Shown in pieces: positions 1,851-63,152 of a DNA stretch of 64,000 bases. Location: NCBI GenBank assembly GCA_014058105.1, contig JACGCM010000779.1, positions 2,542,001 to 2,606,000 on the forward strand, read 5' to 3'. Made by a program: the position numbers and the translations under genes. Positions within the stretch are counted from its first letter, which is position 1. Each line of letters begins with the position of its first letter. Source of the DNA: Kingdonia uniflora (Eukaryota > Streptophyta > Magnoliopsida > Ranunculales > Circaeasteraceae). The notes beneath the pieces were generated by a model, which saw only the letters and a list, made by a program, of their open reading frames with translations, was not told the origin of the DNA and ran no database searches.

Positions 1851-3792
1851 CTAAGTACTCCCTCTCCTCGCTCTCCGAATACAAAAAACCAGAAATAGAA
1901 AAGAAGGGTTAGGGAGATAGAGATCTCAATTGACGATTTTACTACCGCCGAAGGAGGAAAAGATAAGAGGAAAATAGTGTTTAGGAGTCTCTATTACGAC
2001 AGCGAGAGGAGGCTGAGATCGAGAAAGTTTTGAAGAAGTTGTAGAAATTGAGCAAACTGGTATGGACCAACGCTATAGACTCTTACTCGTGTGTAGAAGG
2101 TAAGTCTATGTTTGTGTTTATGAGAGTTTTTGCATAAAAAGCTTTATTGTGTTGGGATAAGGATGCAATCCCCACCTAAACACAAAAACAAAAATAAAAA
2201 TAATAAGGGGAATAATGACTACGGGGTGAGAAAAATCATTGTGTGATAATTGTGATTGTAGAAGTGATCTTAGTAGTGCGAGCTAACAATTGATATATAT
2301 ATACCTCGACCTATTTGTAGGTTTCGTTGGAAAAGCTTCTTGTATAGTAGATCCCTTACTGTAGATAAGTATGGTTTCGACCTCCAGTTGTGAAAAGGCT
2401 GATGAAGTAGACCTAGTAGGGAATTTATCTCCCGTCATTGGAATAGGGGACGAGGAGGATATTGCAGCAGAATTGGTAGAATGGCCTCGTTTGAAGGATT
2501 CTTGAGTTGAGTACCCTATGGGTTGTAGTCGATTTAGGGAGTTTTGTAAGGCCAAAAGTAGTGTAGATGGGATCTGGGGGTACGCCTTTGGATATAGGGA
2601 CAATTTCTTTAGGACTTGCAGTATCAGACAAGGAGGGGATTACCTATATTTGTTGCCCGATTTGGCTAAAGAAAAGAAGTGCAGGCATTTGGGGGACGAG
2701 GTGTCCTTGGAGTACGTTCAAGGCATGGTAAAGGAGAGCGGGACTGATGGTTTTTGTTGTTATTTAGCCCAGTTCGACTATGGGTTGACGCTGTCTTTGA
2801 GCAATTTGGCTAAGAGTGTTATGAATATGATTGGGGCTTGCCCGGCGCAGCTAAATTACAATTTTTGGGAAGTTATCCTTGTATGCGAAACCATTTATTA
2901 GAGCTTGGCTGCATCTGGTAGTGAGAGTTGGATTACTGCTAAGGATTTTCTCGAGTATTATACTGTGAAGTATGTCACAGCAACTGATGGTGCATATCTT
3001 TTTTCTAGTTCTTCAAGACCATGCTATTTCGACTTGCCTTCAGCAGGGCGAGTGTGGATCGACAACCTTTTATGGGTGTCTGGTGAATGTCTTCAACGGT
3101 CTGATGAGGAACCCCTAGAACTTAATAATATAACTATAACAAAGGGTAAGTATACCATTGAAAATCGGACAATCATTTGTATGGTGAACTATATTTCAAT
3201 AGTTGATTTGTATCTTATGTTGCCTATCTTTTATGGAGGAATTAGCTGTAAAGTTTTGTGGAAGGAATCCTTCAAAGATTATGTTGCCAAGGAGGGCACT
3301 GAGCTCGAGGTCGTGCTTAAAAAGTTAGGGATAAATAGGTTCAAAAGGGTAGCTAGTAAGGACGACAAGGTCAGGAGATCTCAAGTGAAGATGAGAAAGG
3401 CTGGGAAAACTTCAGGCTCTATGGAAGGGAATATGTTAACTCATGAACTTAATACTCCTTTGAAGCTTGCGTGGCTTAACGAAATGCCAGATGGGCCAGT
3501 AGACATGGCCACTGTGCCCAGCACTGTTGTACAGAATCTTGTGAAGAGGAAGACCGTGAAAAGGGGGGCAGCTTCTCGTTCTGCTACGTCGGACAGTGTG
3601 GACGATAGCAGTAAGAGGAGGAAGGTAACTCCTCCCGCAAAGTCACAGGTGGTGTTAGAGGAAAGCGGTAAGATTGCTGAAGGGGTTAACTTGAGGCCGC
3701 GTTATGAGATTGAAACCGGTCTCATGGAGGAACAATGTCGAGCTAAAGCTCGAGAGAAGGTGGTCATTGCTGTTGAAGACAAGTTTAAGAAG

Positions 3793-3857: not shown

Positions 3858-4277
3858 TTTGCTCGTGCTCTGAGGAGGGTTCAGCTTGGTCTCCAAGATA
3901 GGTCTATTGAGCTGGAAAGGAGGATCTCCCAGCTCGAGGGAGAGAAAAAATAGTTTGAAGAGAGATTGACTCGAAAGAGAGAAGTTTTTTAGTTGGAGCT
4001 GGAGAAAGAAAGGGAAGCTGCTGCCATAAAGCTGAAGGAGGTTAGGGCCGAAAGTGTAGCTGAAGCAGAGCGATTGGTTTCCGCGTCTGATACTTCTCAG
4101 AACAACCTTACAAGGAAGCTCTACCAGCTGAGGTATACAAAGGCTGAGATTTTGGCATTTAACAAAGGGAATTATGAAGAAAAGGAAATTGTGGATGAAG
4201 AGGAGGTTGAGAAAATGGAGGATGGTCTGAATGTTGCTGAAAAGACCGTTACCGATAATCAGGAAACTATTGATCAG

Positions 4278-7166: not shown

Positions 7167-8620
7167 TCAATTGAGGTTGCACGCCAATTGGAACTCATTT
7201 TCTTCGTCTGTGAGCTCGTGGTCTCTTACAGGATGGTAGTACTTTATTGGGATCACTACTTCAATTCCATAGGCAAGTATAAAAGGAAAGCACTGTGTTG
7301 ACTTCCAGGGCATAGTTTGATAAGCCCATAAGACGTGAGGTAATTCACGTATCCAGTTGCCCTTCTTCTGTGATATAAGGAACTTTTTGAGACCATCCAC
7401 GATGATTTTGTTTGTGATCTCCGCCTGTCCGTTTCCCTAGGGGTAGTACGGGTTTGATGGAGAATAGATTATGTTGTGTTTATTGAGAAATGCTACGACC
7501 TTGGCTCCAACGAACTGAAGACCGTTATCGATACGGATCAAATGGGGACAACCGAATCTTGTGATGATATGCTGCCAAATGAAAGAAATGATCTCTTCTT
7601 CTCGAGTTCTGCATAGAGGAACTGTTTCAACCCATTTAGTAAAGTAATCCGTGGCAACAAGGAGAAATTTCTTGTTACCAAGAGTATTGGGGAATTCACC
7701 AACTAGATCAAGTGCCCATCGCTTGAACGGCCAGTACACCTTGCTGGCATGGAGTTCGAGGGCAGGGGCCCGAATTTGATTACCATAACGCTGACATGTG
7801 TCGCATTTCCGTGAGTATTCTTCAGCTTGCTTCTGCATCCCTGGCCAGAACACTCCTTGGGTAATAGCTCTGTTAGCAAGAGTTTGCCCTGTGGTAGAGG
7901 ATCCGCAGGTACCTTCATGTAGATATTGAAGCATCTTGTAGGCAAGTTCCTTAGAGAGGCACTTGAGGTATAAAATAGTAACTGATTGTTTATAGAGATT
8001 TCCGTTTGGTTGGACTGTGTAGCGCCTCAAATTCTCGATGATGTATCTGCGCTGCTGTGGATCATCTAGTAGTGGCCCGTTGCATGAGTAATCCGGACCG
8101 AGATAAATAACGAATGGTTTCCTCCAATCATCTTCCGCCATCTCATCTCTCCCAGTGTTAATCGTATATATTGTAGTACGATTAATATTGGGGCTAGAAA
8201 AAACTTTGATTTGAAGGTGTCTTGATTCTGTACCCAATACTCCGGCTAAGTAAGCCAAGGAGTCGGCATGACAATTCTCTACGCAAGGGAGGTATTCGAG
8301 CGTAACTTTATGAAATTTGTTTAGTTTTTCTACAACCAGAGCTGCATAATCGACCATGATGCCATTCTTCTTGTAATGTTCTGAGTAGTGATGAACGATT
8401 AGAAGAGAGTCTGTGTAGGCCAAAATTTCAGTGATTCCGAGTTTGAGAGCCATATTCAGACAATGAATGAGTGCCTCGTATTCTGTAACATTGTTCGAGG
8501 TTTCGAAGTCGAGACGGATGGATTTCTCGATTTTGTTATTGGTAGGCGTAATGAGAACGATCCCAATTCCTGACCTTACGGGTCCTGCTGAACCATCGGT
8601 AAGGAGCCTTCACCCTTTTT
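7167..8620 (-). pseudogene. E1 pol: second RNase H (aRNH) and integrase
   Basis: Reading leftwards, an RNase H-like domain starts near 8600 (DGSAGPVRSGIGIVL) with YEALIHCL and AYTDSLLIV motifs and ends near 8220. The integrase follows. Its zinc-binding N-terminus keeps the Cys pair (CDTCQ), but the second His expected after CG is replaced (CGSSTTG). The catalytic core shows the first Asp in WALDLVG (about 7710), the second Asp in RIDNG (about 7524) and the Glu in GNGQAE (about 7420). A TAG at 7435-7437 falls just before that Glu block. The C-terminal part continues, with stops, to about 6850. It would carry out integration of the cDNA. The order RT-RNH-aRNH-INT is the Tat arrangement. Confidence 0.85.
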
Positions 8621-8828
8621 GAGATATCTATGATGCTCGATCATCAAAAGATTTAGAGAGTGGAAACTCATCTGTTGCATCTTCGGTGAGATTTGGATCA
8701 TGTTCTTCCCAGTCAGGATCTGAAACTGGAAAGTCTGCTAGGAAATCAACAACTGCTTGACCCTTTTCTGAAATTCGCTGCTCGAATTTGATTTTGTGCT
8801 CCCCCAAACTGACGGACCATTGTTGTAT

Positions 8829-9236
8829 TCATCTAGATTTCTCTTTCTTAGACAATACTTCCCAAAGTGGGTAGTTTGTCATGACTTTGACAGGATGTGC
8901 TTGAAAATAGTGTTTGAGCTTTTCTGCGGTGTAAACGAGAGTTAAAAGTAATTTTTCAATTTTAGAGTACCTCGTTTCTGTCGGAGTAAGTGTTTTGCTG
9001 AGGAAGAAGATCAGTTTCTCAATTTTACCTTTAAGCCGAATGAGAATCGAGCTGAGAGATACATCTGTAACTCTGAGGTAGATAATCAGTTCCTCATTGC
9101 CTATCGGAGTGCTCATGATTGGAGCCCTCCCGAGGTAAGTTTTGAGTTCCTGAAAAGCTACTTTGCGTTCTGGTGTCCAGTTGATATCTTCGTTCTTTAA
9201 CCCATTGCCTCGTTTAGTGAAACCTTTGAGTAGCAT
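8829..9236 (-). pseudogene. E1 pol: RNase H of the reverse transcriptase
   Basis: The open stretch carries the RNase H start (INWTPERKVAFQELK), a degraded active-site block (YLRVTDVSLSSIL, where family members usually have a D-S/T-A-type strand) and the end block SKTLTPTETRYSKIEKLLL. It follows the RT (9318-10067) in the Tat order. A frame interruption separates it from both neighbours, so no polyprotein could be read through. Confidence 0.75.
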
Positions 9237-9317
9237 AAATTACCATCTGCATCGGTCTGAGGATTTGGATAGGAATCGGTTGATTGCTGCAATCTTTCCT
9301 GCGAGCTTTTGTGCATC

Positions 9318-10067
9318 CTACTTTGTTGATGGTAAAGGCATATCCAGAAGAGCTCGAATTTGATCTGGATCTGCTTCTATCCCTTTCTTGCTGATAAGAT
9401 GACCCAAGAACTTGCCCGAGTAAACACCGAACTGACATTTTTTGGGATTAAGCTTCATTCTATAGGATCGTAATATACTGAATACTGTAGAGAGATGAGA
9501 GATGTGATCTTCTTTCTTTAGGCTCTTGCAAAGCATGTCATCAATATAGACTTCGAATGTTTCTCCTAAGTGTTCTTTAAACATACTTGTGACCAGCCTC
9601 TAGTAAGTGGCTCCAACGTTCTTAATGCCGAATGGGATGACCTTGTAACAGTAGAGACCTCTTTCTGTAATAAATGTAGTCTTTTCTTGATCTGGTTCCA
9701 AGAGTGGAATCTGATTGTACCCCGAAGCGGCGTCCATCATGGACAAGAGTTCATGACCTGCTGTAGAGTTGAGGATCTGATGAATGATCGGAAGAGGGAA
9801 ACTGTCTTTTGGCATGTGTTTGTTAAGATCTGTAAAATCCACGCAGACCCGAACCTTCCTATTCTTCTTTCGAACAACATCGATATTAGAAATCCAGTCC
9901 GGGTACTTGGCTTCTCGAATGAAACCGACCTCGATAAGTTTGTCGATCTCCTTGTTCACCTCATCTCGAAGTCTTGGAGATAACCTATGTATCTTCTGCT
10001 TAACTGTTGTGGCACCTTCGCGGATATTTAATATGTGGCAAGACTTTGAGGGGTCTACGCCTGGCAT
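9318..10067 (-). pseudogene. E1 pol: reverse transcriptase
   Basis: Conserved Ty3/gypsy RT blocks occur in order: VRVCVDFTDLNKHMPKDSFP, LSMMDAASGYNQIPL, TTFITERGLYCYKVIPFGIK, then the catalytic YIDDM (about 9535-9550) and LNPKKCQFGV...FLGH. A stop at 9600 (in ...GATY*RLV) splits the domain into two open stretches in one frame, 10067-9600 and 9584-9318. The catalytic Asp pair is intact. It would copy element RNA into cDNA in virus-like particles. Confidence 0.88.
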
Positions 10068-10206
10068 TTCTTGGAAGTTCCATGTGAAAACGTCTTTGTT
10101 GGATTGGAGGAAAGAAATAAAAGCTTCTTTCTCTGTTTGAATTAATTTTGTACCAATATAAGTACCTTGGTTACTCCATCGATCTGGACGTATTCCACGA
10201 GCTCGG

Positions 10207-10680
10207 CTAGAGAAAACTGATCATCGAGGTGATCAGCCTTCTGTGATTGCTATGTAGCAATCTGGTCGAGAACTGGCGAGACTGTATTTTCGCACGCAGA
10301 GAGAGTTTCTGACTTCCTTTGATTTCATAAATACCGTTATTATGTTCGAAACGGAGTGCTTGGTGGAACGTGGACGGGATGGCCTCCATATTGTGCAGCC
10401 AACAGCGTCCTAGTATCCCCAAATACCTTGATTTGGCATTAATGACATAAAAAATAACGTCGATAGTGGTAGGCCCTGCTGTAATCGGGAGAGTAATCTT
10501 CCCAACTCGTACTTCTTTGGACCCATTAAACCCACTGATGTCTGTCTCGGTTTGAACAACCTGATCTTAGAGTCCCATTTGATCAATCGTTCTCTAAAAA
10601 AGGATATCAATCCTATTTCATGTGCCCACCATCATGGTGTGCATTACGAAGTTCCTCATTTTAAGCATAATTACTACTGC
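10207..10680 (-). pseudogene. E1 protease region, active site lost
   Basis: The stretch between gag and RT corresponds to the retropepsin domain. The strand before the active site is visible (AVVIMLKMRNFVMH), but the expected V-D-T-G turn reads MVGT followed by a stop. Compare intact VDTGS in E2 at about 27690. Flap-like and C-terminal parts (GRCWLHNMEAIPSTFHQALRF) are still readable. The broken active site rules out a working protease. Confidence 0.6.
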
Positions 10681-10681
10681 A

Positions 10682-12184
10682 TCATAATGAGGATACTTCA
10701 TATGTCTTGTATCGCAGTCTTCGAAGGAGATTCCCTTTCGACGACTGCTTGACTCTTGGGAGGGGCTTGGCTTCCTTGTCCTGGATGGCAAGGTCACAGC
10801 ACTCACCGAACTTCCTACATTTGACTCTGTTGGAATTCAAAACATGATTGATCTCGATCATATTACTGCAGTAGAGATGATATAGATGCTTCTCCTCTGC
10901 TTGTTTTGTTGCTTGAGTCTCGTCACCTGGTGTCAAATTGATCCAATCTTTATAGCTGGGAAGATAGATTATGTATTCGAGCATCTACCCTTCATTAAAA
11001 ATGATATCCAGGAGCTTCTTCAAACCATAGTAATTTTCGGTGCTGTGGTGTTTAATCTTGTGATATTCGCAATAAGGTCGACCTGCAATTGGATCAAGAG
11101 GTCGAGCTGGACGAAAACATTTATCTTTCTGGAGAACAGGATAGATCACGAAAAGCTTGGCATTCAACTTTGGTATCACTATTCTGGATGGTTTCTGCGA
11201 CCTCTGATTGTCGTCTCTTCCTGGTTCTGTCTTTGCTCGTTTATGATCGCCTTGATCGCTCGGGCTGCGGTTATTGCTGGAATATGTAGAAGGAACCTTG
11301 GTGTTGTGGATTGCCTTTACGGGTTTATTCGGTTCAGGCATCATCCACTCCAGATCGATGTAATTGTTAACTTTCTCGATCATATCTTCGAGAGTCTTGG
11401 GCTTCTTCAGGAAGAGATACTCTTTAGCTTTGCAATTGAACTGCAGTACATTTGTAAATGCGGACACGGCTGTCTTCTGATCTAGACTGTTGACCTTCCG
11501 AGCCAGTTCGAGAAACTTCTTGGAGAACTCCTCGAGCTTTTCCCCTTGTGCTTGTTTGAGACTTATAAGAGAATATACGTTCTCTTCTTTGTCTTTATTG
11601 TGGGCATAAGCCTTGATGAAGATTTTCTGTAACTGCTCGAAGGTATGAATCGAACCTTCCGGTAAAGAGTGGAACCAATGGAGAGATTCGTCCAGGAGAC
11701 TGGTAGCGAAGAGCCGGCAAAGGATGTGATTCAGATTAGAATACAAACCTAATGAATCGCGGAATTGTTGAACGTGCTGGCCGGGATTGGTTCCTTTGTA
11801 TTTGATGATTTTGGGTGTATGAAAACCTGTTGGGACATTCATATCAAATAATTCCTTAGAAATTGGACTACCTTGTAATTTATGCGAGTCATCTTTCGTG
11901 TCTAAAGCCATTTCTTTGATGATCTCCCTGATACGCTGGTCCAAGAGCTCCTGAGAAATATAATGTTGAGGGATATGAGCTGCTGGAACTGCTAGAACTA
12001 CCAGAACTGCTGGAACTGTCAGAACTGTTGGAACCGTTTGACGTATGAGTCTGGGAATGTGGTTATCTATTTCCTCGCTCATATATTCAGGAAGCGGAGC
12101 TCGGTAAGGAGGTCGTAGGACTTCCTCGGGTTGCTTGAAAGGCCTGCGATCTCTGCTGATATCTGTTTGTGCCTCCTGTCCCAA
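10682..12184 (-). pseudogene. E1 gag polyprotein (Tat type)
   Basis: A 399-residue open frame (12184-10985) continues in frame after one stop (10985-10987) to 10682. A proline-rich N-terminus is followed by a retrotransposon gag (capsid) domain at about residues 135-250 (GTNPGQHVQQFRDSLGLYS, LDESLHWFHSLPEGSI, FIKAYAHNKD, LISLKQAQGEKLEEFSKKF). The nucleocapsid end has the Tat-type C-x-Y-H-x(3)-H pattern (CEYHKIKHHSTENYYGL), with the last Cys replaced by Tyr. Gag would form the virus-like particle. This is the best-preserved gag in the window. Confidence 0.85.
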
Positions 12185-12650
12185 ATGAATTGAGACTATC
12201 GGTGTTTGTGGACCCTCAAAATGAATCCTGGAAATGTCTGTACTGCATACCTCATATGGCCCTAACCTCTCATGAACGGAAACCCTTGAGGTCGTTGATA
12301 CTGTCTCGCGTTCTCTCAGGGCAGGTGATGGTTGGCTGCTCTATAATGCTTTCAGAACTGTTTGAAAAGCTAACATCTGAGCTTCTTATTTTTTTGTCTC
12401 CAGACTTCGAGCTTGACGCTCTCGTTCTGACTCCTTCTCACGGAGTTCTTAATCTACCAATAACAGACGCTCGATCTGACTCTGCTTCTCGGCTTTGGCA
12501 ATTAAGCTCGCCTGAAGTTCGGCAACTCAATCAGGCCCCCTTGAACTTTCAGGTTAAGCTTCCGAAGACTAACGTGTTTAAACCATAATTGAATACTGCT
12601 TGACTGATGAGTATTTATTTTAGCTCTTAAGTACGTGGATAAACCGTGCG

Positions 12651-30586: not shown

Positions 30587-31330
30587 TGTAGAGGCATAAT
30601 CTCGTAAAGGGGAGCTCACGCTCTTATACTCTGGGATTTAGGTTCAACTAGAGGTTTTCACAAATGTATAAGACATAAATAAGATAATATACCGTGTTAA
30701 CATACTTGCGTATAGTCCATGAATTGATACTCTCTACGACCTCTAGCAAGGATTTGAATGGGATGATAGATATATGAATGAGGTTATAGTTCGAATTGAA
30801 CAAAACTTAAATATGCTCGAAGGTTTCTAATCTTATGGGAAGTTTTTGGGTTGAGATTCTCTAACCTCTCCATGATGTCTCTCCTTTCCTATTTATAAGA
30901 GATAAGAAAGAATGAGTCACCATAGAGAGGTCATATTACATGTATACCCTTTTGGGGTAGTTATCCTATACGTGAGGATGGTTCTGAAACTACAGCTGTC
31001 TGGCGGCTTGTTTTACTGTATTGTCTGGTGAGATAGCTGTCATGTTTTTCTACCTTTGACCATACACCAATATGATCAAAATCCTCTTGGAATTTCTGTT
31101 GGGCTCTGTATGTTGTATGACTGCCTTTAGTTTCGAATCATGCAGTAGACTTTGGCTCTTTGGTAAGTTTAGATGTGGCCTTCGAGTGTTCGGTTAGTCT
31201 CGGAAGGCTTCGGGTATATCATATGCCTTCGGCTATTTTATAAGTTCCCTGGGCTTTGAGTGTTTTGTAGGCTTCGATGTAACCTTATAGTATTCAATTA
31301 ATCTAGGAAGGCTGCGAATATGCTGTTACA
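30587..31330 (-). repeat. E3 3' LTR (744 bp)
   Basis: It begins TGTAGAGGCATAATCTCGTA and ends GAATATGCTGTTACA. A polypurine tract AAGGGGTAAA (minus, 31331-31340) abuts it. The TATA box TATAAATAG (minus) is at 30889-30897, and the ACGACCTCTAGC motif is near 30750. Confidence 0.92.
30889..30897 (-). promoter_or_regulatory. TATA box of E3 LTR
   Basis: TATAAATAG on the minus strand inside the LTR; the right LTR has TATAAATAG at the homologous place (about 42859). Confidence 0.5.
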
Positions 31331-32901: not shown

Positions 32902-33600
32902 TGTAGGGGCTTAGTTTCGTAAAGGGGAAACTTAGCTCTTACACCTTGAAGGTTACCCTTTACTAAGGGTTTTAGACAATATATAAGACCATGAACAACT
33001 AGTTTAATGTGCAAGCATACTTGCATAGAGTCCAGGAATTGGGTTCTCCACGACCTCTAGCGAGGATTTGAATAGAAGATGGTATATATATCGAGTTAGA
33101 TGACAGTTCGAGCTAAGAGAAGGTAACAGGTTATTCGAAGGTAATCGTAAGAAGGTTTTAGGTAAAGTTTTTCTAACCCCTACACAGTGTTTCCTCTATT
33201 TAATTTATAGGAGATAGAAAAAGGGTGAGTCACCGTGTGAGGTCAGATTATATGTATACCCTTGGGGTAATTGTCCTGTGCAATAAGTCAGCTTTGACAC
33301 TGTAGTTGTTTGGCGGCTTGTTTCCACTATTTTGTCTGGTGAGCTGGCTGTCAGGTGTGTCTGCCTTTGACCATGTATTACTATGGTCAAAGTCATTCTG
33401 GAGTCAATGTTGATCGACTATCTTTTGTTTTGGCTTTGACTTACTTTGATAACGCATTCGAGTGCTTGAGTGTTCGATTAATCTCGAAAAACTTCATGGA
33501 ATTCACTGTTAGTCTTGATGGGCTTTGAGTCTCTAGGTAGGCTTCGATGTAGCCTTCGAGTATTCGACTAGTACTGGAAGGCTGCGAGTAGGCTACTACA
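32902..33600 (-). repeat. solo Tat LTR with perfect TSD, nested in E3
   Basis: It starts TGTAGGGGCTTAG and ends GGCTACTACA. It is flanked on both sides by ACAGG (32897-32901 and 33601-33605). It shares the LTR layout of E3 (ACGACCTCTAGCGAGG, GTCTGGTGAGCTGGCTGTCAG, GGAAGGCTGCGA) but is a diverged relative. No internal sequence remains, so the element was lost by LTR-LTR recombination. Confidence 0.95.
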
Positions 33601-42556: not shown

Positions 42557-43300
42557 TGTAGAGGTATAATCTCGTAGAGTGGAGTTCGCGCTCTTATACC
42601 GTAGAATTTAGGTTCGACTAGAGGTTTTCACAAATATATAAGACAGAAATAAGATAATATACCATACTAACATACCTATATAGCATCCATAAATTTGTAT
42701 TCTCTACTACCTCTAGCGAGGATTTGAATGGGATGATGGAGAAATGAATGAAGTTACAGTTCAAATCAAACGGAGCTTGAATATGTTCTAAGGTTTCTAA
42801 TCTTATGTGAAGTTTTTGGGCTGAGATTCTCTAACCTCTCCATGATGTCTCCCCTTTCCTATTTATATGAGATAGGAAAGGATGAGTCACCATAGAGAGG
42901 TGATATTACATGTACAACCTTTTGGAATAGCTATCCTATACGTGAGGTCAATTCTGACATTGTAGCTGTCTAGTGGCTTGTTTTACGATATTGTCTGGTG
43001 AGTTGGGTGTCAGGTTTGTCTGCCTTCGACGATACACCAATATTGTTAAAGTCCTCTTGGAATTTTTCTTGGGCTCTGTATACTGCACGACTGCCTTCGG
43101 CTTCCAATCATGCAATTGACTTCTGCTCTTTGGTAAGTTTGGATGTAGCCTTCGAGGGTTTGGTTAGTCTAGGAAGTTTTCGGGTATATCGTATGGCTTC
43201 GCCTATTTTGTAAGTTCCCTAGGCTTCGAGTCTTTGGTAGGCTTCGACGTAGTCTTCTAGTATTCGATTAGTCTTGGAAGGCTGCGAATACGCTACTACA
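42557..43300 (-). repeat. E3 5' LTR (744 bp)
   Basis: It begins TGTAGAGGTATAATCTCGTA and ends GAATACGCTACTACA. It aligns along its whole length with 30587-31330. The sequence CGCTACTACA recurs right after it (43306-43315) outside the target-site duplication. Confidence 0.92.
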
Positions 43301-48529: not shown

Positions 48530-49169
48530 CATATTAACTTAATCCATCTTAGTTTCCCTAATTTTGTGAATCAAAGGGCAATCCTGAGTATAGTGTCAAA
48601 TATCATCACACGCAGCACATGCTGGCATATCGGCACGAAAAATTGGTGCTTTAGTAGACATTATGTTTCCCCTTATTTCTAATAACTCTATCTTACATAT
48701 GATGGTCGTCAACGTAGCTTCTAAATTGGAGTTATATCTAACTCACAAGGTATTGCCCCCCTTTTCTTGAATATCAGTTTCTCTCATGGTTTCCCAGGTT
48801 TGTAATTTTTTAGCCATCTCTTCTAAAAAGTCTAGGCCCTTTACATCATACTTATTAGTAAATTTCCCTAAGCAAAAGGATTTCACAGTTTTCTTGGTTT
48901 TGATATCTAATCCATTATAAAGATTTCTAGTTAGGACCCATGATTCGATGTTGTGATAAGAACACTCATGGATTACTCCCTTATATCTCTCAATATAATC
49001 CTGTAAGCTCTCTCCATGAAGTTGGGTAATCCTAAGAATGGCCCTACGTATGGAGGGTCTCTATTTTCTCAAGAAAGAAAAACATTTTGTAAAAGGCTTT
49101 TGTTTTCACCTCAAAACTTGTGATTAATTTTGGTCGTAGAGCTTGAAGCCATCTTTATAGGTGTGGTCT
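48530..49169 (-). pseudogene. E5 gag, C-terminal part
   Basis: RWLQALRPKLITSFE (49150), QLHGESLQDYIERYKGVIHE (about 49020), LEEMAKKLQTWETMRE (about 48815) and a degenerate nucleocapsid CAACDDIxHYTQDC (about 48600) are in Athila gag order. The left part of the interrupted gag resumes right at the end of the hAT-like insertion. Confidence 0.75.
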
Positions 49170-49398
49170 TATACGAGTAAGGATGGCAATTTGCCCAGCC
49201 CTGTTTAGAGAGGATTTGGGATGACTATATCAGGTATGGGGGCGGGTCTGGGCCAAGTTTGGTTAAATCCGTCGGGGATTGGGGCGAATTTGAGACTGAG
49301 CTTGGTTAAATTCGTTATCCGCCCTGCCCTGCCCTATATAATACTTTTACTTTAATACCCCTGTATATATATTAGAATTAAGAAATGAAAACCCTAAT

Positions 49399-49400
<2 letters not shown>

Positions 49401-49436
<36 letters not shown>

Positions 49437-49440
49437 CTCT
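49401..49440. repeat. (CAACTCT)n short tandem repeat
   Basis: CAACTCT is repeated about five times in the probable captured 5' untranslated leader, just upstream of the coatomer fragment. Confidence 0.85.
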
Positions 49441-49697
49441 CAGCTCTGAAACCTATCTCTCCCTAAACCAAACCCGAGTACCCAACAATTCTTCAGATGC
49501 AATTCAAAATCAAAGAATTAGAAAAATCAATGAATTTGAGAAATTAAAGAATTATTTCTTGGTTACTCCCATCCCACTATATACAAAGAAAAAACACACC
49601 AACATTTTCGAGCTTTGTTTCTCCGATTTCATACCAAAATCCCAAATTCTCGTCTCCTTATCAAAACAAGTCAGTTTCTCTTGATTTCTTAATCGAA

Positions 49698-49958
49698 ATG
49701 GTAAGATTTCATTGCCAGATCTGGTGAAATTATGCTTTAATTTGAATCGAATTTTGATATGTTTTTCTCTAAATTGTTGCATGTTGTGATGATGAAATAA
49801 CCTCTGAGACTTGAAATCAAGGTATTTGGATCTTAATCTCTTTGAATTGTTGTAATGTGATTGATTGGTAACCCTTTTGTTTTGATTTGGATCAGAGGAA
49901 ACTTGCTCAAAGATCTGAAAGAGTGAAATCTGTGGATCTTCACCCGACGGAGCCATGG
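49698..49958 (+). pseudogene. captured coatomer subunit beta-prime 5' exons
   Basis: The exon at 49896-49958 encodes RKLAQRSERVKSVDLHPTEP followed by Trp, the near-invariant N-terminal WD40 start of the COPI coat subunit beta-prime (COPB2/SEC27). It is preceded by an intron-like stretch with donor ATG|GTAAGA (49698-49701) and acceptor GGATCAG (49895), and followed by a donor ATG|GTATTT. The usual residues between the first Met and RKLA are missing. The upstream stretch 49330-49690 looks like its leader (ACCCTAATTC, CTCTCC-rich). In the cell the parent protein coats Golgi-ER vesicles; this copy is only a fragment. Confidence 0.85.
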
Positions 49959-50035
49959 TATTTTTACTTGATTAGATCACATTAGAAGAGTAAATGTGTT
50001 GTCACTTGTTATGTGTAATTTGTGCTCAACTTTGT

Positions 50036-50420
50036 TTGGGGCAAGATCCTTACGAGTCTTTATTCAGTGAGTTCCAAGACATATTTGATGTTGATCATTT
50101 CATTACATCCTTGAGAGATCAAGTACGGATATTGAAAGAGTTGTCACCAAGGCTCAAGAGAAGAGTTGAGCTCGGAATGTTCTATTCAATGCCACCCATT
50201 AGTTGGTCAGATATTTCTTACTACCTTCATCAGGTTCATTTCCTACTACTGCTTGGAATGCTTTCATTTTATTTCTCCACTCACCCATTCTTAAATGACT
50301 TCTGAATTGTTTTGCAATCAGATTATTCCTTTGATACAAAAGTTTAAGATCGTTCATTTGAATAAAACTGATGCCCGACTCGCTAATAATGGGTCCTGAC
50401 AAATACTTACGGTAGGATTA
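50036..50420 (+). pseudogene. captured O-fucosyltransferase family exons
   Basis: Exon a (about 50045-50233) encodes [40 protein letters not shown] and [14 protein letters not shown]. Intron 50234-50321 has GT...CAG ends. Exon b (50322-50391) gives [20 protein letters not shown] then ANNG. Joining over 50392-50415 continues as LPDIK, so an intron there has shrunk to about 24 bp. The text matches plant GDP-fucose protein O-fucosyltransferase-family proteins, which act in the Golgi. Only a small internal part of the gene is present. Confidence 0.82.
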
Positions 50421-51052
50421 CCTGATATTAAAGTATTGTTACCAATGACTTTAATATACTCATTAAGTGCCTATTTTAGAGTTTCTATTTCTTTAGTCTC
50501 TTTGATACATCTGAACTCCCAGCTAATTTGGCTTCCGCTGAAAGTCTACTCTCTCCTGAAGTTTGTTAATGTAAGATTACTTTGTTTGGTGGTTGTACAT
50601 AAAAGCAATATAGATGCTAATATAGATCTGTGTAGAAGCCAGCTCACCAACTTGATCTTCTTACTTTCATGTTCACTTGGCTCTGAAGTTTGAAGTATCC
50701 AATATCTATCAATGTATAGTCTAAAGAAGGGATCTTTTTGGACTGTAATTATGTGCTGACGTTGTATACTGCATAGTTGCTGTTAAACGTTCTAGATAGC
50801 AAGATATTGGCTTTGTATTTGAGTTGTAATATGCTGAGTTTGCGTATTCTAGATAGCAAGAAATGGTACCTCTAGTGGAGTTTTTGTTATTATCAATGTT
50901 CTAGTTACTTTTGAGTCAATAGAAATGTTATAGGGGGAATAGAACATGCTACTTAGGATTTTTTGGTGTTGCTATTTGTTGGTCAAAATTCAGTAGAAAT
51001 GCTAGATGAAGTTGTGATCAGACTAAAAATATCTGCTTCCTGTGTCCTGCAG

Positions 51053-51239
51053 CATAATAATAACCGCATTTGTGGGGATGGCGATAGCGTTTGGTTGCTT
51101 CTCAGCAGCAGCCATGTTGGCAAAGCGTCGGGAATACCTTTACTTGGGAGACCTGCTTTCATCTGGGTTCTCCATCCTCTTTTGGTTGTACTTCGCTTCC
51201 TCCATTTTTGGAGGATCTGCTGCTACGTTCAAGTTTGAG
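51053..51239 (+). pseudogene. captured Bax inhibitor-1 exon
   Basis: The acceptor TCCTGCAG (51052) and donor GAG|GTGAGG (51240) bound an open exon encoding ITAFVGMAIAFGCFSAAAML, AKRREYLYLGDLLSSGFSIL and ASSIFGGSAATFKFE. This is the hallmark central exon of plant Bax inhibitor-1 (LIFEGUARD/TMBIM6 family), an ER membrane cell-death suppressor; the helices are hydrophobic as expected. The following exons are absent. Differences from the usual family text (GGLL to GDLL) fit neutral drift. Confidence 0.9.
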
Positions 51240-51976
51240 GTGAGGGTGGCAGAAGTGATATGCAGTATAGTGATAATCCATATCAAGGCTACTTTCGCTA
51301 CTACGAGTTATGGCTGCAGACCAGATTTCGGAGGTAAGTACATATCCTACTATTTGTAGATTGTACTACTTGACGAACATTCATTTTTATTTGTCTGATT
51401 TAACCAGGAAATATTTGTTTCCTTTGTCCAGAAATTTTTGATAGTGTCTGTGAGAGTTGGGGCCATGTAGACGTGGGTGTGATTGTTTGCGGTCCTCAAA
51501 GCATTGAATCAAGTGTTTGCTAAAGAGTTCAGGTCAAAGAACATAAGGGGTGGAAAGAATGAGGCTTATTTTTACTTCAACTGCCATAGTTTTGATTTGT
51601 AAATTAATGCCCAGATTGAGTCCATCCAATATCCATATATGAATGTAAGCAATAGTTGAGTTTACATAGATAGAAATTTACAAGGTTGAAGTAAAATGTC
51701 ATTGACAGTCTGTAATGAATAGTTAAAGGAATAAAGCTTTGGCTGCCATAGTTTTGTACAATGTACATAACCATTCATTTCTTCTTATTTTCTTCTTCCT
51801 TCTTTTTGAATTCTGAATTATGCTTTCTAAATGTTTTTTTGCAAGGTGGGGTGGATTCGGGGATCCCCGTTTAACTTAAAAGGGTATTGGGACGGGAATG
51901 GGGGGTTGAAGCCTAAGTGGGGATGGGATTAGCTCCCCCACCCCAAATCCGTCTCATTGCCATCTCTACATAGAGT

Positions 51977-52360
51977 TTCATGGCCTCCATATGAGCCATT
52001 TACTCTCATATGAGCCCATCACCCTCATATGAGCATCTTGCTCTCATATGATCCTTTTGCTCTCATATGTGCCCTTAGTCTCATATGAGCACCTCGCTCT
52101 TAGACGAGCCTCTTGCTCTTATATGAGCCCTTAGTCTCATATAAGCACCTTGATCTCATATGAGCCCATCACTCTTATATAACACATTTGCTCTCATATG
52201 AGCCCCATACTCTCACATGAATACTTCTCTCATATGAGCCCCTTGTTTATGTGCCCTTTGCTCTCATATGAGCCCTTTACTCTTATATGAACGTCTTGCT
52301 CTTATATGAGCCCTTTGCTCTTTTATGAGCCTCATGCTCGTATACAAGCCACTAGTCACT
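51977..52360. repeat. minisatellite with CTCATATGAG palindrome cores
   Basis: About 18 degenerate units of roughly 20 bp follow the pattern TTTGCTCTCATATGAGCCC. The centre CTCATATGAG is a perfect 10-bp palindrome in many units. Variants include CTTATATGAG and CTCATATAAG. The array lies inside the interrupted E5 gag. Confidence 0.88.
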
Positions 52361-54211: not shown

Positions 54212-54216
54212 TTAAA
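54212..54216. other. left target-site duplication of E4 (TTAAA)
   Basis: TTAAA is found here and at 59877-59881, directly outside the two E4 LTRs. Confidence 0.85.
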
Positions 54217-54773
54217 TAATCCACAATCCGATTGAGAAGCTTTAATTAGTAAAAAGAACGAAGAATACTAATTAGATTTGGAAAAATAGAGATTCGATTA
54301 CTTAAACTTGAAGTAATTATAATAAAAACTTTCAAACCCTAGGCTTCTCTCAGAAATCCCTTTAGATTTAACATAACCTAAAAAATAACCTAAGTTCCTT
54401 TTATATACTAGGGAACTCAAAATTATAAAATAGAACGCATCTCGAGGCAAAACAATGTCTAAGAATCAAAATACTACTAGAGTCGTTCGAACGAACCAGG
54501 TAGTCGTTCGAACGACTTTATGACTAATTGGTCTAAACCCTAAAAAAGTTGTCTGGTAGTTCTAACGAAACCCAACTCGTTCGAACGAAATATGGCTCAG
54601 GGCCAAAATTCTAGAGGACATGACAACTCGTTCGAACAACACACAACTTCGCTCGAGCGAAATATGGCTCTGGGCCAAAATTCTAGAGGACATGACAACT
54701 TGTTTGAACGGCACTCAACTTCGTTCGAACGACTTTGATAAATCTTCAAATAAATCTAGATCCTCCTGGATAA
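54217..54773 (-). repeat. E4 3' LTR (557 bp)
   Basis: It starts TAATCCACAATCCG and ends TCCTGGATAA; a polypurine tract (AAAGGGGGGAGCCA, minus) follows at about 54774-54787. It is 93 bp longer than its partner: a 72-bp tandem unit (starts 54586 and 54658) and a 21-bp repeat of TCGTTCGAACGA text (about 54484-54515) are single in the right LTR. Confidence 0.93.
54586..54729. repeat. 72-bp tandem duplication inside E4 3' LTR
   Basis: CGAAATATGGCTC begins at 54586 and again at 54658, followed both times by GGGCCAAAATTCTAGAGGAC and ATGACAACT. The right LTR has one copy (about 59762). Confidence 0.9.
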
Positions 54774-54859
54774 TGGCTCCCCCCTTTAGGAGCCTTGAGC
54801 TCCTGCTCAAGCTAGAACTGGAGATGTGAGAACGCGACGATGCCCATTTCCCTACTGTA

Positions 54860-59410: not shown

Positions 59411-59412
59411 CA

Positions 59413-59876
59413 TAATCCATAATCCGATTGAGAAGCTTTAGTTAGTATAAAGAACGAAGAATACTAATTAGATTTGGAAAAATAGATATTCGATTATTTA
59501 AACTTGAAGTAATTACAATGAAAACTCTCAGACCCTAGGCTTCTCTCAGAACTCTCTTCAGATCTAACATAACCTAGAAAATAACCTAAGTTCCCTTTAT
59601 ATTCTAGAGAACTCGAAATTACAAAATAGAACGCATCTCGAGGCTAAACAATGCCTGAGAATCTAAACACCGCCAGAGTCGTTCGAATGACTTTACGACT
59701 AATTGGTTTAAACCTTAGAAAAGTTGCCTGATCGTTCGAACAAAACCCAACTCGTTCGAACAAAATATGGCTCTGGGCCAAAATTCCAGAGGACATGACA
59801 ACTAGTTCGAACGACACTCAACTTCGTTCGAACGAGCTTGACAAATCTTCAAATAACTCTAGATCTTCCTGGATCA
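59413..59876 (-). repeat. E4 5' LTR (464 bp)
   Basis: It begins TAATCCATAATCCG and ends CTGGATCA. TTCGAA palindromes are scattered through its right half (59690-59845). It pairs with 54217-54773. Confidence 0.93.
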
Positions 59877-59881
59877 TTAAA
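59877..59881. other. right target-site duplication of E4 (TTAAA)
   Basis: It matches 54212-54216 exactly. Confidence 0.85.
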
Positions 59882-62320: not shown

Positions 62321-63114
62321 AGTTGAGGTCTGAAAAAGAATCATAAACTGAAGCAAGTATGGATAAGGAGAGCCAAGTGAATGTGCAACATGACCTACTC
62401 GACAGAGAAACAAAGAGAAAAAATAATCTGCAGGGATCATTCCTGTTTTTCAATTGTGCATTATTGGGCGTTGGAAGCATCGTGGCACCGCTACTTGTAC
62501 GCCTCTATTTTGTTCGAGGGGGTGCAAGGATTTGGTTGTCGAGTTGGTTGCAGACCGCCGGGTTCCGATATTGTTTCTCTCTATTCTACTCTCTTACTTC
62601 TATCGACGTAAAAATAGTCCAGAAGGGTAAGGTCAAACCTTACTTTTTTACAAGGCGTCTCTTCATAACAAGCGCAATTATTGGAGTTCTCGGAGAGGTC
62701 GCCAGCTATTTATATGCTTCTGGTGCTGGCAAAGTGCCAGTTTCGACATCTACTCTATTACTTTCTACTCAGTTGGCTTTCGTAGCAGATTTCACTTTTA
62801 TCATCGTTAAGCAAAAGGTTACATCTTACTCATTAAACTCCGTTGTTTTGTTGACTGTGGCTTCTTTGATTCTGGGTCTTCATGCTAATGGTGATCGACC
62901 CAATCACGAGTCCGACAAGATGTACTATGCTGGATTTTCTATGACTTTGGGAGCCGCTGCACTCGTTGGGTTCAATTTCCCGTTGATCGAGCTTATGTAC
63001 ATGAAAGCAAAGCAAAAGGTAACTTATTATTTAGTGATGGAGATGCAGCTTGTGATATGTATATTTGCTACTGCTTTCAGCACTGTGGGGATGCTTGTGA
63101 ACAAGGACTTCCAA

Positions 63115-63117
63115 GTA

Positions 63118-63152
<35 letters not shown>

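Follow-up and report, generated by a model that had tools for sequence, protein, structure and literature searches.

Introduction

In maize, two Ds2 and nine Ds-l4 elements carry gene fragments according to the available part of PMC3260210, in which gene capture by hAT transposons is called rare. Maize also contains Pack-hAT elements, and the Pack-TYPE elements of this species commonly draw on two or more loci (PMC8903248, available part). The Hatvine-6 hAT family of grapevine has a 13-bp TIR and, in a table of the accessible text, a 9-bp TSD (PMC2528002). Among animal Pack-TIRs, 208 of 370 belong to hAT in the excerpt at hand. How cut-and-paste transposons gain genes is unsettled, with gap repair, template switching and tandem insertion as the alternatives.

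Kingdonia uniflora (Ranunculales, Circaeasteraceae) is an early-branching eudicot. The stretch of its DNA analysed here (hereafter the window) is 64,000 nucleotides long and corresponds to positions 2542001-2606000 of contig C1349 in a genome of 1.00 Gb and 2693 contigs. It contains an element that is very probably a non-autonomous, Ac-like hAT transposon (Pack-hAT), built stepwise from a transposase-bearing element of its family by the copying of host-gene DNA.

Like maize Ds2 and Ds-l4, the family to which this element belongs is an Ac-type hAT with short TIRs, an 8-bp TSD and captured exons with introns, and one maize Ds capture element is annotated as a gene, as is the window copy; unlike here, a four-gene array and a transposase-bearing series of intermediates are not described in the accessible part of PMC3260210. 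The Pack-hAT elements of PMC8903248 are likewise TIR elements with genic cargo, but come from other species, and the part consulted proposes tandem insertion, a trace of which is absent from the junctions displayed in our analysis. Hatvine-6, likened to the present family by description only, shares transposase and TIRs among members with variable genic and non-genic cargo; it differs in its TSD, and a stepwise order is not described in the available text of PMC2528002. Maize Helitrons also gained several gene fragments successively, but are rolling-circle elements with TC and CTRR ends and a 3' hairpin (PMC3288121, available part).

A sequence-only reading of the window had presented capture by a hAT-type element, with fragments of three genes, as less commonly described. 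This overrated its novelty, as capture by hAT elements has been published for maize Ds (PMC3260210), Hatvine-6 (PMC2528002) and Pack-hAT (PMC8903248). Pack-hAT is already known, and the Kingdonia family adds an unusually complete series of steps; gene capture by hAT elements is rarely seen with so many steps preserved. No report of the Kingdonia family or of a stepwise multi-gene hAT series was found in the texts, in part accessible, of one open library.

Extent and ends of the element

The coordinates of the element and its parts are compiled in Table 1. The end positions proposed by the sequence-only reading proved exact. The two ends of the window copy are inverted relative to each other at 11 of 13 bases; taken alone, they are weak evidence because they represent one of 29 inverted pairs reported within 4 kb. 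We nevertheless accept them as real because sister copies have the same ends together with 8-bp duplications. A clean 8-bp TSD was not found at the window copy: the flanking 8-mers match at three of eight positions without gaps and are separated by an edit distance of 2; of 20,000 random pairs, 1.8% come as close. The TSD that the earlier reading had proposed to look for is thus unclean here but present in sister copies. Of the characteristics of the Ac/Ds-like hAT superfamily, short TIRs were found at the window copy and the 8-bp TSD at the level of the family; the assignment of the window copy to hAT rests on its sisters. We take the ends of the family to be of the Ac type, partly from general knowledge of the Ac TIR.

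Table 1. Features of the Pack-hAT locus (positions in the window)
Feature	Position	Strand	Remark
Retrotransposon gag remnant beside left end, outside element	48743..49154	-	
Left flank at expected 8-bp TSD position, TATACGAG	49170..49177		TSD decayed or absent
Whole Pack-hAT element, 2791 bp	49178..51968	+	Sister copies with same ends
5' TIR, TAAGGATGGCAAT	49178-49190	+	12/13 to family TIR TAGGGATGGCAAT
hAT left end, G+C-rich start	49178..49549	+	
Coatomer beta-prime (COPB2) fragment	49550..50064	+	Parent-like locus L023
Annotated chimeric gene GIB67_005663, 227 aa	49994..51524	+	Four exons, GT-AG introns
O-fucosyltransferase (O-FucT, RRT1-like) fragment	50065..50392	+	Parent-like locus L030
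Filler GTCC, 4 bases, O-FucT/BI-1 junction	50393..50396	+	
Bax inhibitor-1 (BI-1) fragment	50397..51256	+	Parent-like locus L016
Filler GATA, 4 bases, BI-1/FRO junction	51257..51260	+	
Ferric reduction oxidase (FRO, FRO6/7-like) fragment	51261..51724	+	Parent-like loci L032-L034
hAT right end	51725..51968	+	
3' TIR, TAGAGATGGCAAT	51956-51968	-	12/13 to family TIR TAGGGATGGCAAT
Right flank at expected 8-bp TSD position, CATAGAGT	51969..51976		

A minisatellite with a unit of ~19 bases (CTCATATGAGC..., 51990-52360) directly adjoins the element on its right side, where no continuation of the gag remnant was seen. This arrangement may have caused the loss of the TSD at the window copy. Self-comparison of the window revealed neither a second copy of the element nor a repeat of its flanks usable as an empty site.

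Several other features were noted in the window. Direct repeats at 54216-54774 and 59412-59877, 86-89% identical and ~5.2 kb apart, enclose protease and RNase H domains on the minus strand and delimit a candidate LTR retrotransposon. A Ty3-type retroelement with gag, RT, RNase H and integrase domains occupies 7437-12340 on the minus strand. The stretches 30587-31330 and 42557-43300 form a direct repeat of 84% identity, with a third copy (~71%) at 32902-33402. Finally, a plus-strand open frame at 62347-63120 encodes a purine permease domain (PUNUT, E 1.1e-58) and is probably an ordinary host gene.

Captured gene fragments and their parent-like loci

The cargo of the window copy consists of fragments of four genes, all in sense orientation and with introns kept; copying was therefore from DNA. 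The COPB2, O-FucT and BI-1 identities, already recognized in the sequence-only reading, were confirmed by homologues (PDB, Pfam and protein matches) and by alignments with other loci in this genome. Unrelated host genes are indeed combined, but their number is four rather than three, FRO having been missed. The COPB2 piece, previously taken for a single N-terminal exon, comprises exons 1-3 and the start of exon 4 (best PDB match, E 1.5e-8). It begins 148 bp upstream of the ATG (49698-49700); exon 2 (49801-49821) is now preceded by an AA acceptor, and exon 3 (49896-49957) is followed by the start of exon 4, the acceptor of which has likewise changed from AG to AA. The O-FucT piece contains an exon (50068-50233), an intron and a second exon starting at 50322 (Pfam, 33.4 bits against a cut-off of 31.5). 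The earlier impression that splice sites are still visible thus holds in part: the two COPB2 acceptors are mutated, and it was the junction that created the donor following the second O-FucT exon, the parent exon continuing at this point.

In the BI-1 piece, an intron (50397-51052) precedes an exon (51053-51239) with the native donor at 51240; its Pfam score of 34.0 bits is just below the cut-off of 34.1. The FRO piece contains the end of the penultimate exon (up to 51333), an intron, the last exon (51432-51602) and part of the 3'UTR, and its frame is broken by an 8-bp deletion and a 1-bp insertion. The Pfam match to NAD_binding_6 is below cut-off (19 against 22.2 bits), and the best two of 15 protein matches are Kingdonia proteins with 85% identity. 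A fifth gene at ~50500-50560 was considered and rejected: the stretch has no PDB match and aligns as BI-1 intron.

A search for the parent genes, suggested in the sequence-only reading, located parent-like loci of all four fragments in the same genome on separate contigs (C1563, C1146, C1794 and others, C2437 and others). As in Pack-TYPE elements, host coding DNA has been copied between TIRs and the source genes are still in the genome. The O-FucT locus L030, the BI-1 locus L016 and the FRO loci L033 and L034 lie on the contigs of the annotated genes GIB67_001784, GIB67_012477, GIB67_043104 and GIB67_035875, respectively. Because the BI-1 fragment is equally close to L015, L016 and L017 (4.4-4.6%), its source may be any of these three. 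The FRO loci L032, L033 and L034 (C2676, C2666 and C2437) are near-identical, and two of them are on contigs shorter than 50 kb; they may be assembly duplicates, possibly unmerged haplotypes. Their treatment as independent parents was rejected, the compared stretches being identical or nearly so. C>T/G>A changes are the largest class in BI-1 (14 of 37) and FRO (16 of 39), are level with transversions in COPB2 (10 of 23) and are not the largest class in O-FucT (3 of 11), a pattern that gives, at most, a faint indication of methylation and decay.

Copies of the family

A genome search with the whole element yielded 55 matches, with 40 of 1328 candidates scored, and hence represents a sample. Because of this proportion, more copies are likely to exist in the genome and could alter the series described below. 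All places among the matches listed were compared and are denoted by L-numbers. At least 26 loci besides the window carry element ends or cargo, the rest of the matches listed being parent-like gene loci. L009 (C1716:47500-53300) is duplicated together with its flanks as L013 (C1716:123000-129000) on the same contig, where the left end, COPB2, O-FucT and part of BI-1 were lost by deletion. One Pack-hAT insertion with near-identical flanks occupies three assembly places, L026 and L027 on C540 and L042 on C2294, apparently through segmental or assembly duplication. Subtraction of the duplicates L013, L027 and L042 from the 27 loci left 24 independent insertions, including the window copy. Further copies with the same ends and different cargo, as the sequence-only reading had proposed to seek, are thus present in the same genome.

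The left end is constant over ~230-330 bp among family members, including those with other cargo. The right end is constant over ~130-240 bp, with the last ~130 bp common to nearly all members compared and the rest to many. In the other 23 independent loci, 36 of the 43 ends located match the family TIR at 12-13 of 13 bases. TSDs were scored in the 21 insertions with both ends (L020, L024 and L035 are without one). A perfect 8/8 TSD was found in eight of them (L011, L014, L018, L019, L025, L037, L038 and L040) and a 7/8 TSD in four (L021, L031, L036 and L041); three more score 6/8 (L009, L028 and L029), which is little above chance, and the match is poor in the remaining six (window, L010, L012, L022, L026 and L039).

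Eight open frames from four same-ended loci were scanned for transposase domains, and six of these frames matched. Dimer_Tnp_hAT was found in L025, L036 and L041, hAT-like_RNase-H in L025 and L041, and zf-BED in L040 (one frame scanned, zf-BED only) and, just below cut-off, in L036; the DNA of L040 matches the transposase region of L041 at 92%. Elements with the same ends thus contain hAT transposase, in frames broken into pieces, and no intact autonomous copy was identified among the loci compared. The L041 transposase region has no match in the window copy, which, as a non-autonomous Pack-TYPE element, is without transposase. COPB2-bearing copies occur at six places that share no flank match of ≥100 bp (for L018, a right flank of 506 bp only). 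The element has therefore probably moved with its cargo, and among the COPB2-bearing copies L018 and L019 have an 8/8 TSD. Collectively, sister ends, 8-bp TSDs and transposase domains support the proposal of the sequence-only reading that a hAT element combined unrelated host-gene fragments.

Stepwise growth of the cargo

The 24 insertions fall into a graded series. Seven (L035-L041) are without FRO, and six of these contain transposase DNA; for L035, no right end was found within 11 kb of the left one. FRO is the only cargo gene in another seven (L021, L022, L024, L025, L028, L029 and L031), the transposase region being largely retained in L025 and L024 and reduced to remnants in L022 and L028. 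O-FucT, BI-1 and FRO occur together in L011, L012 and L014, in L011 along with an internally deleted transposase region, and L020 contains BI-1 and FRO but lacks its left side. All four genes are present in the window copy, L009 and L010. The remaining three (L018, L019 and L026) carry COPB2 and O-FucT but have lost BI-1 and retain only 32 bp of FRO.

The breakpoints within the parent sequences are nested. In five FRO-only copies (L022, L024, L025, L029, in pieces, and L031) FRO starts at parent position 4046, in the FRO-only copies L021 and L028 at 4176, and in eight of eight loci with BI-1 ahead of FRO at 4264. O-FucT starts at 1922 in L011, 1945 in L014 and 2630 in L012 (trimmed), and at 1974 behind COPB2 in L018, L019 and L026. 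The window copy, L009 and L010 have a later deletion in common, which joined COPB2 near 3760 to O-FucT 2582. Such nested breakpoints fit the expectation for stepwise growth, and the cargo thus grew step by step on its 5' side. Among the 24 insertions compared, none with BI-1 could be shown to lack O-FucT, so that BI-1 and O-FucT may have arrived jointly or in either order.

In the tree of FRO and the right end, the eight BI-1-bearing rows (including L013) are united at 100/100 in a set that excludes both the FRO genes and the FRO-only copies, with the weakly placed L029 attached beside it. Within this set the tree is a star, and the COPB2-bearing copies are not one clade (three label changes). 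The left-end tree is mostly unresolved, and in it too the COPB2-bearing copies are not one clade (five label changes). Divergence from the respective gene, measured in 14 of the 24 insertions, is 5.7-9.5% for FRO (11 copies) and 2.6-6.4% for COPB2, O-FucT and BI-1; in L010 the gap is small (BI-1 6.4% vs FRO 7.1%). With gene-specific rates uncontrolled, the higher divergence of FRO is in line with its having been captured first.

Three stretches of other sequence were seen in FRO-only copies (two in L025, one in L028); their translations are non-genic by eye.

Mechanism of capture

The following course explains these data best. A transposase-bearing element of the same hAT family took up copies of host-gene DNA, most likely by switching to gene templates while an excision gap or a broken replication fork was being repaired. 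The series began with the 3' end of a FRO gene, joined behind the transposase gene; BI-1 and O-FucT pieces, in whichever mutual order, were then added on the 5' side of FRO; and finally, with the transposase gone, the 5' part of COPB2 was joined. As judged from the six places with unrelated flanks, the whole COPB2-bearing unit would then have transposed, and in the lineage of the window copy part of COPB2 and O-FucT was lost via an internal deletion. The resulting sense array behind the element's own leader could give rise to a chimeric transcript, yet is most likely a decaying passenger. The junctions displayed, a subset of those in all copies, are direct joins or fillers of ~4 bases, and no terminal-repeat remnants were found at them. 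Because these joins have short fillers and no terminal remnants, we infer template switching in repair, at an excision gap or a broken fork, as the most likely mechanism.

The same junctions bear on the main rival, in which family members inserted in tandem around genes and the cargo was remobilized by the outer ends. For Pack-TYPE elements of maize and rice, the available part of PMC8903248 favours such tandem insertion, and its examples of CACTA and hAT acquisition are compatible with it. In the present family, however, the displayed subset of junctions lacks any terminal repeat, and the window copy has a single TIR-like match in its interior, at 51073-51085, which belongs to the BI-1 exon and is aligned to sequence of the parent locus. 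We consider this route unlikely and prefer the copying of genes during repair.

The annotated chimeric gene

The TATA-like motif (49335-49343) and the CT-rich leader (49399-49447) noted previously do precede COPB2, but both lie inside the hAT left end and are the element's own, common to copies without COPB2. An origin from COPB2 was rejected, as transposase-bearing copies such as L025 share the leader. Transcription of a chimera from this leader is possible, and the public annotation places the gene GIB67_005663 downstream of it. Its exons (49994-50233, 50322-50392, 51053-51333 and 51432-51524) reproduce the annotated protein exactly, and the public protein is 100% identical to the O-FucT and BI-1 stretches of the window copy. 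The model starts in a COPB2 intron, takes COPB2 exon 4 out of frame, does not splice at the native donor of BI-1 and terminates shortly past the FRO frameshift.

A reading of GIB67_005663 as a new, functional gene that the element has produced would be in keeping with its annotation, with the four exons whose GT-AG introns give a full protein, with the sense leader upstream, and with a splice through all four genes that is open for 224 codons when COPB2 exon 2 is skipped. Against this, the copies do not share an open frame. L009 and L010 alone among the other copies compared have this structure, and in each of them the frame runs into a stop at codon 6 and into others within the BI-1 exon. Compared with the annotated Kingdonia proteins, the O-FucT and BI-1 pieces show eight residue differences, two of them at positions invariant in 118 of 118 other aligned homologues; at O-FucT position 49 it is the present gene that departs from the common residue, which the captured copy retains. 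No change is seen in the 29 FRO residues ahead of the frameshift, and the protein terminates at the frameshift. Because stops break the frame in both sister copies, a selected function appears unlikely; the functional-gene reading has only a slim chance of being right, and the chimera is most likely a decaying passenger.

Helitron and ordinary-gene readings

Several fragments in the same orientation and with introns are reminiscent of multi-gene Helitrons, and stepwise capture has been published for maize Helitrons (PMC3288121, available part). A Helitron might thus have gathered the gene pieces, the hAT-like ends being coincidental or a later envelope. However, a hairpin followed by CTRR was not found: a loose scan of 49100-52200 gave none on either strand and a stricter scan was empty too, while the same loose scan yields 15 and 9 positions across the whole window. 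Moreover, in same-ended copies 8-bp TSDs abut the TIRs and hAT transposase domains occur, and the TSDs in particular largely refute a Helitron, which we regard as highly improbable. That the cargo represents four adjacent normal exons without any transposon finds its sole support in the annotation as a gene and is practically eliminated, the parent-like loci being on different contigs and the array recurring with unrelated flanks. The findings that the sequence-only reading had named as contrary to its proposal were thus looked for and not encountered: sister copies keep inverted ends, Helitron ends are absent, and the parent-like loci are dispersed.

Implications

All four pieces are oriented like the transposase. 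Because the chance of this is 1 in 16, it only hints at polarity, and we put forward as a long shot that capture is polar, new pieces being copied in the transposase sense and joined 5' of earlier cargo to yield ordered sense exon arrays under the element's own leader. If true, arrays with a gene start in front and a gene end behind would amount to directional exon assembly, no description of which was found for TIR transposons in the accessible parts of the literature searched.

Taken together, a database-annotated gene of Kingdonia is a chimera made by a transposon, with its frame broken in sister copies. One genome holds cargo-free, transposase-bearing, one-, three- and four-gene relatives with common breakpoints, and because these relatives share breakpoints, the order and the junctions of capture can be read directly.
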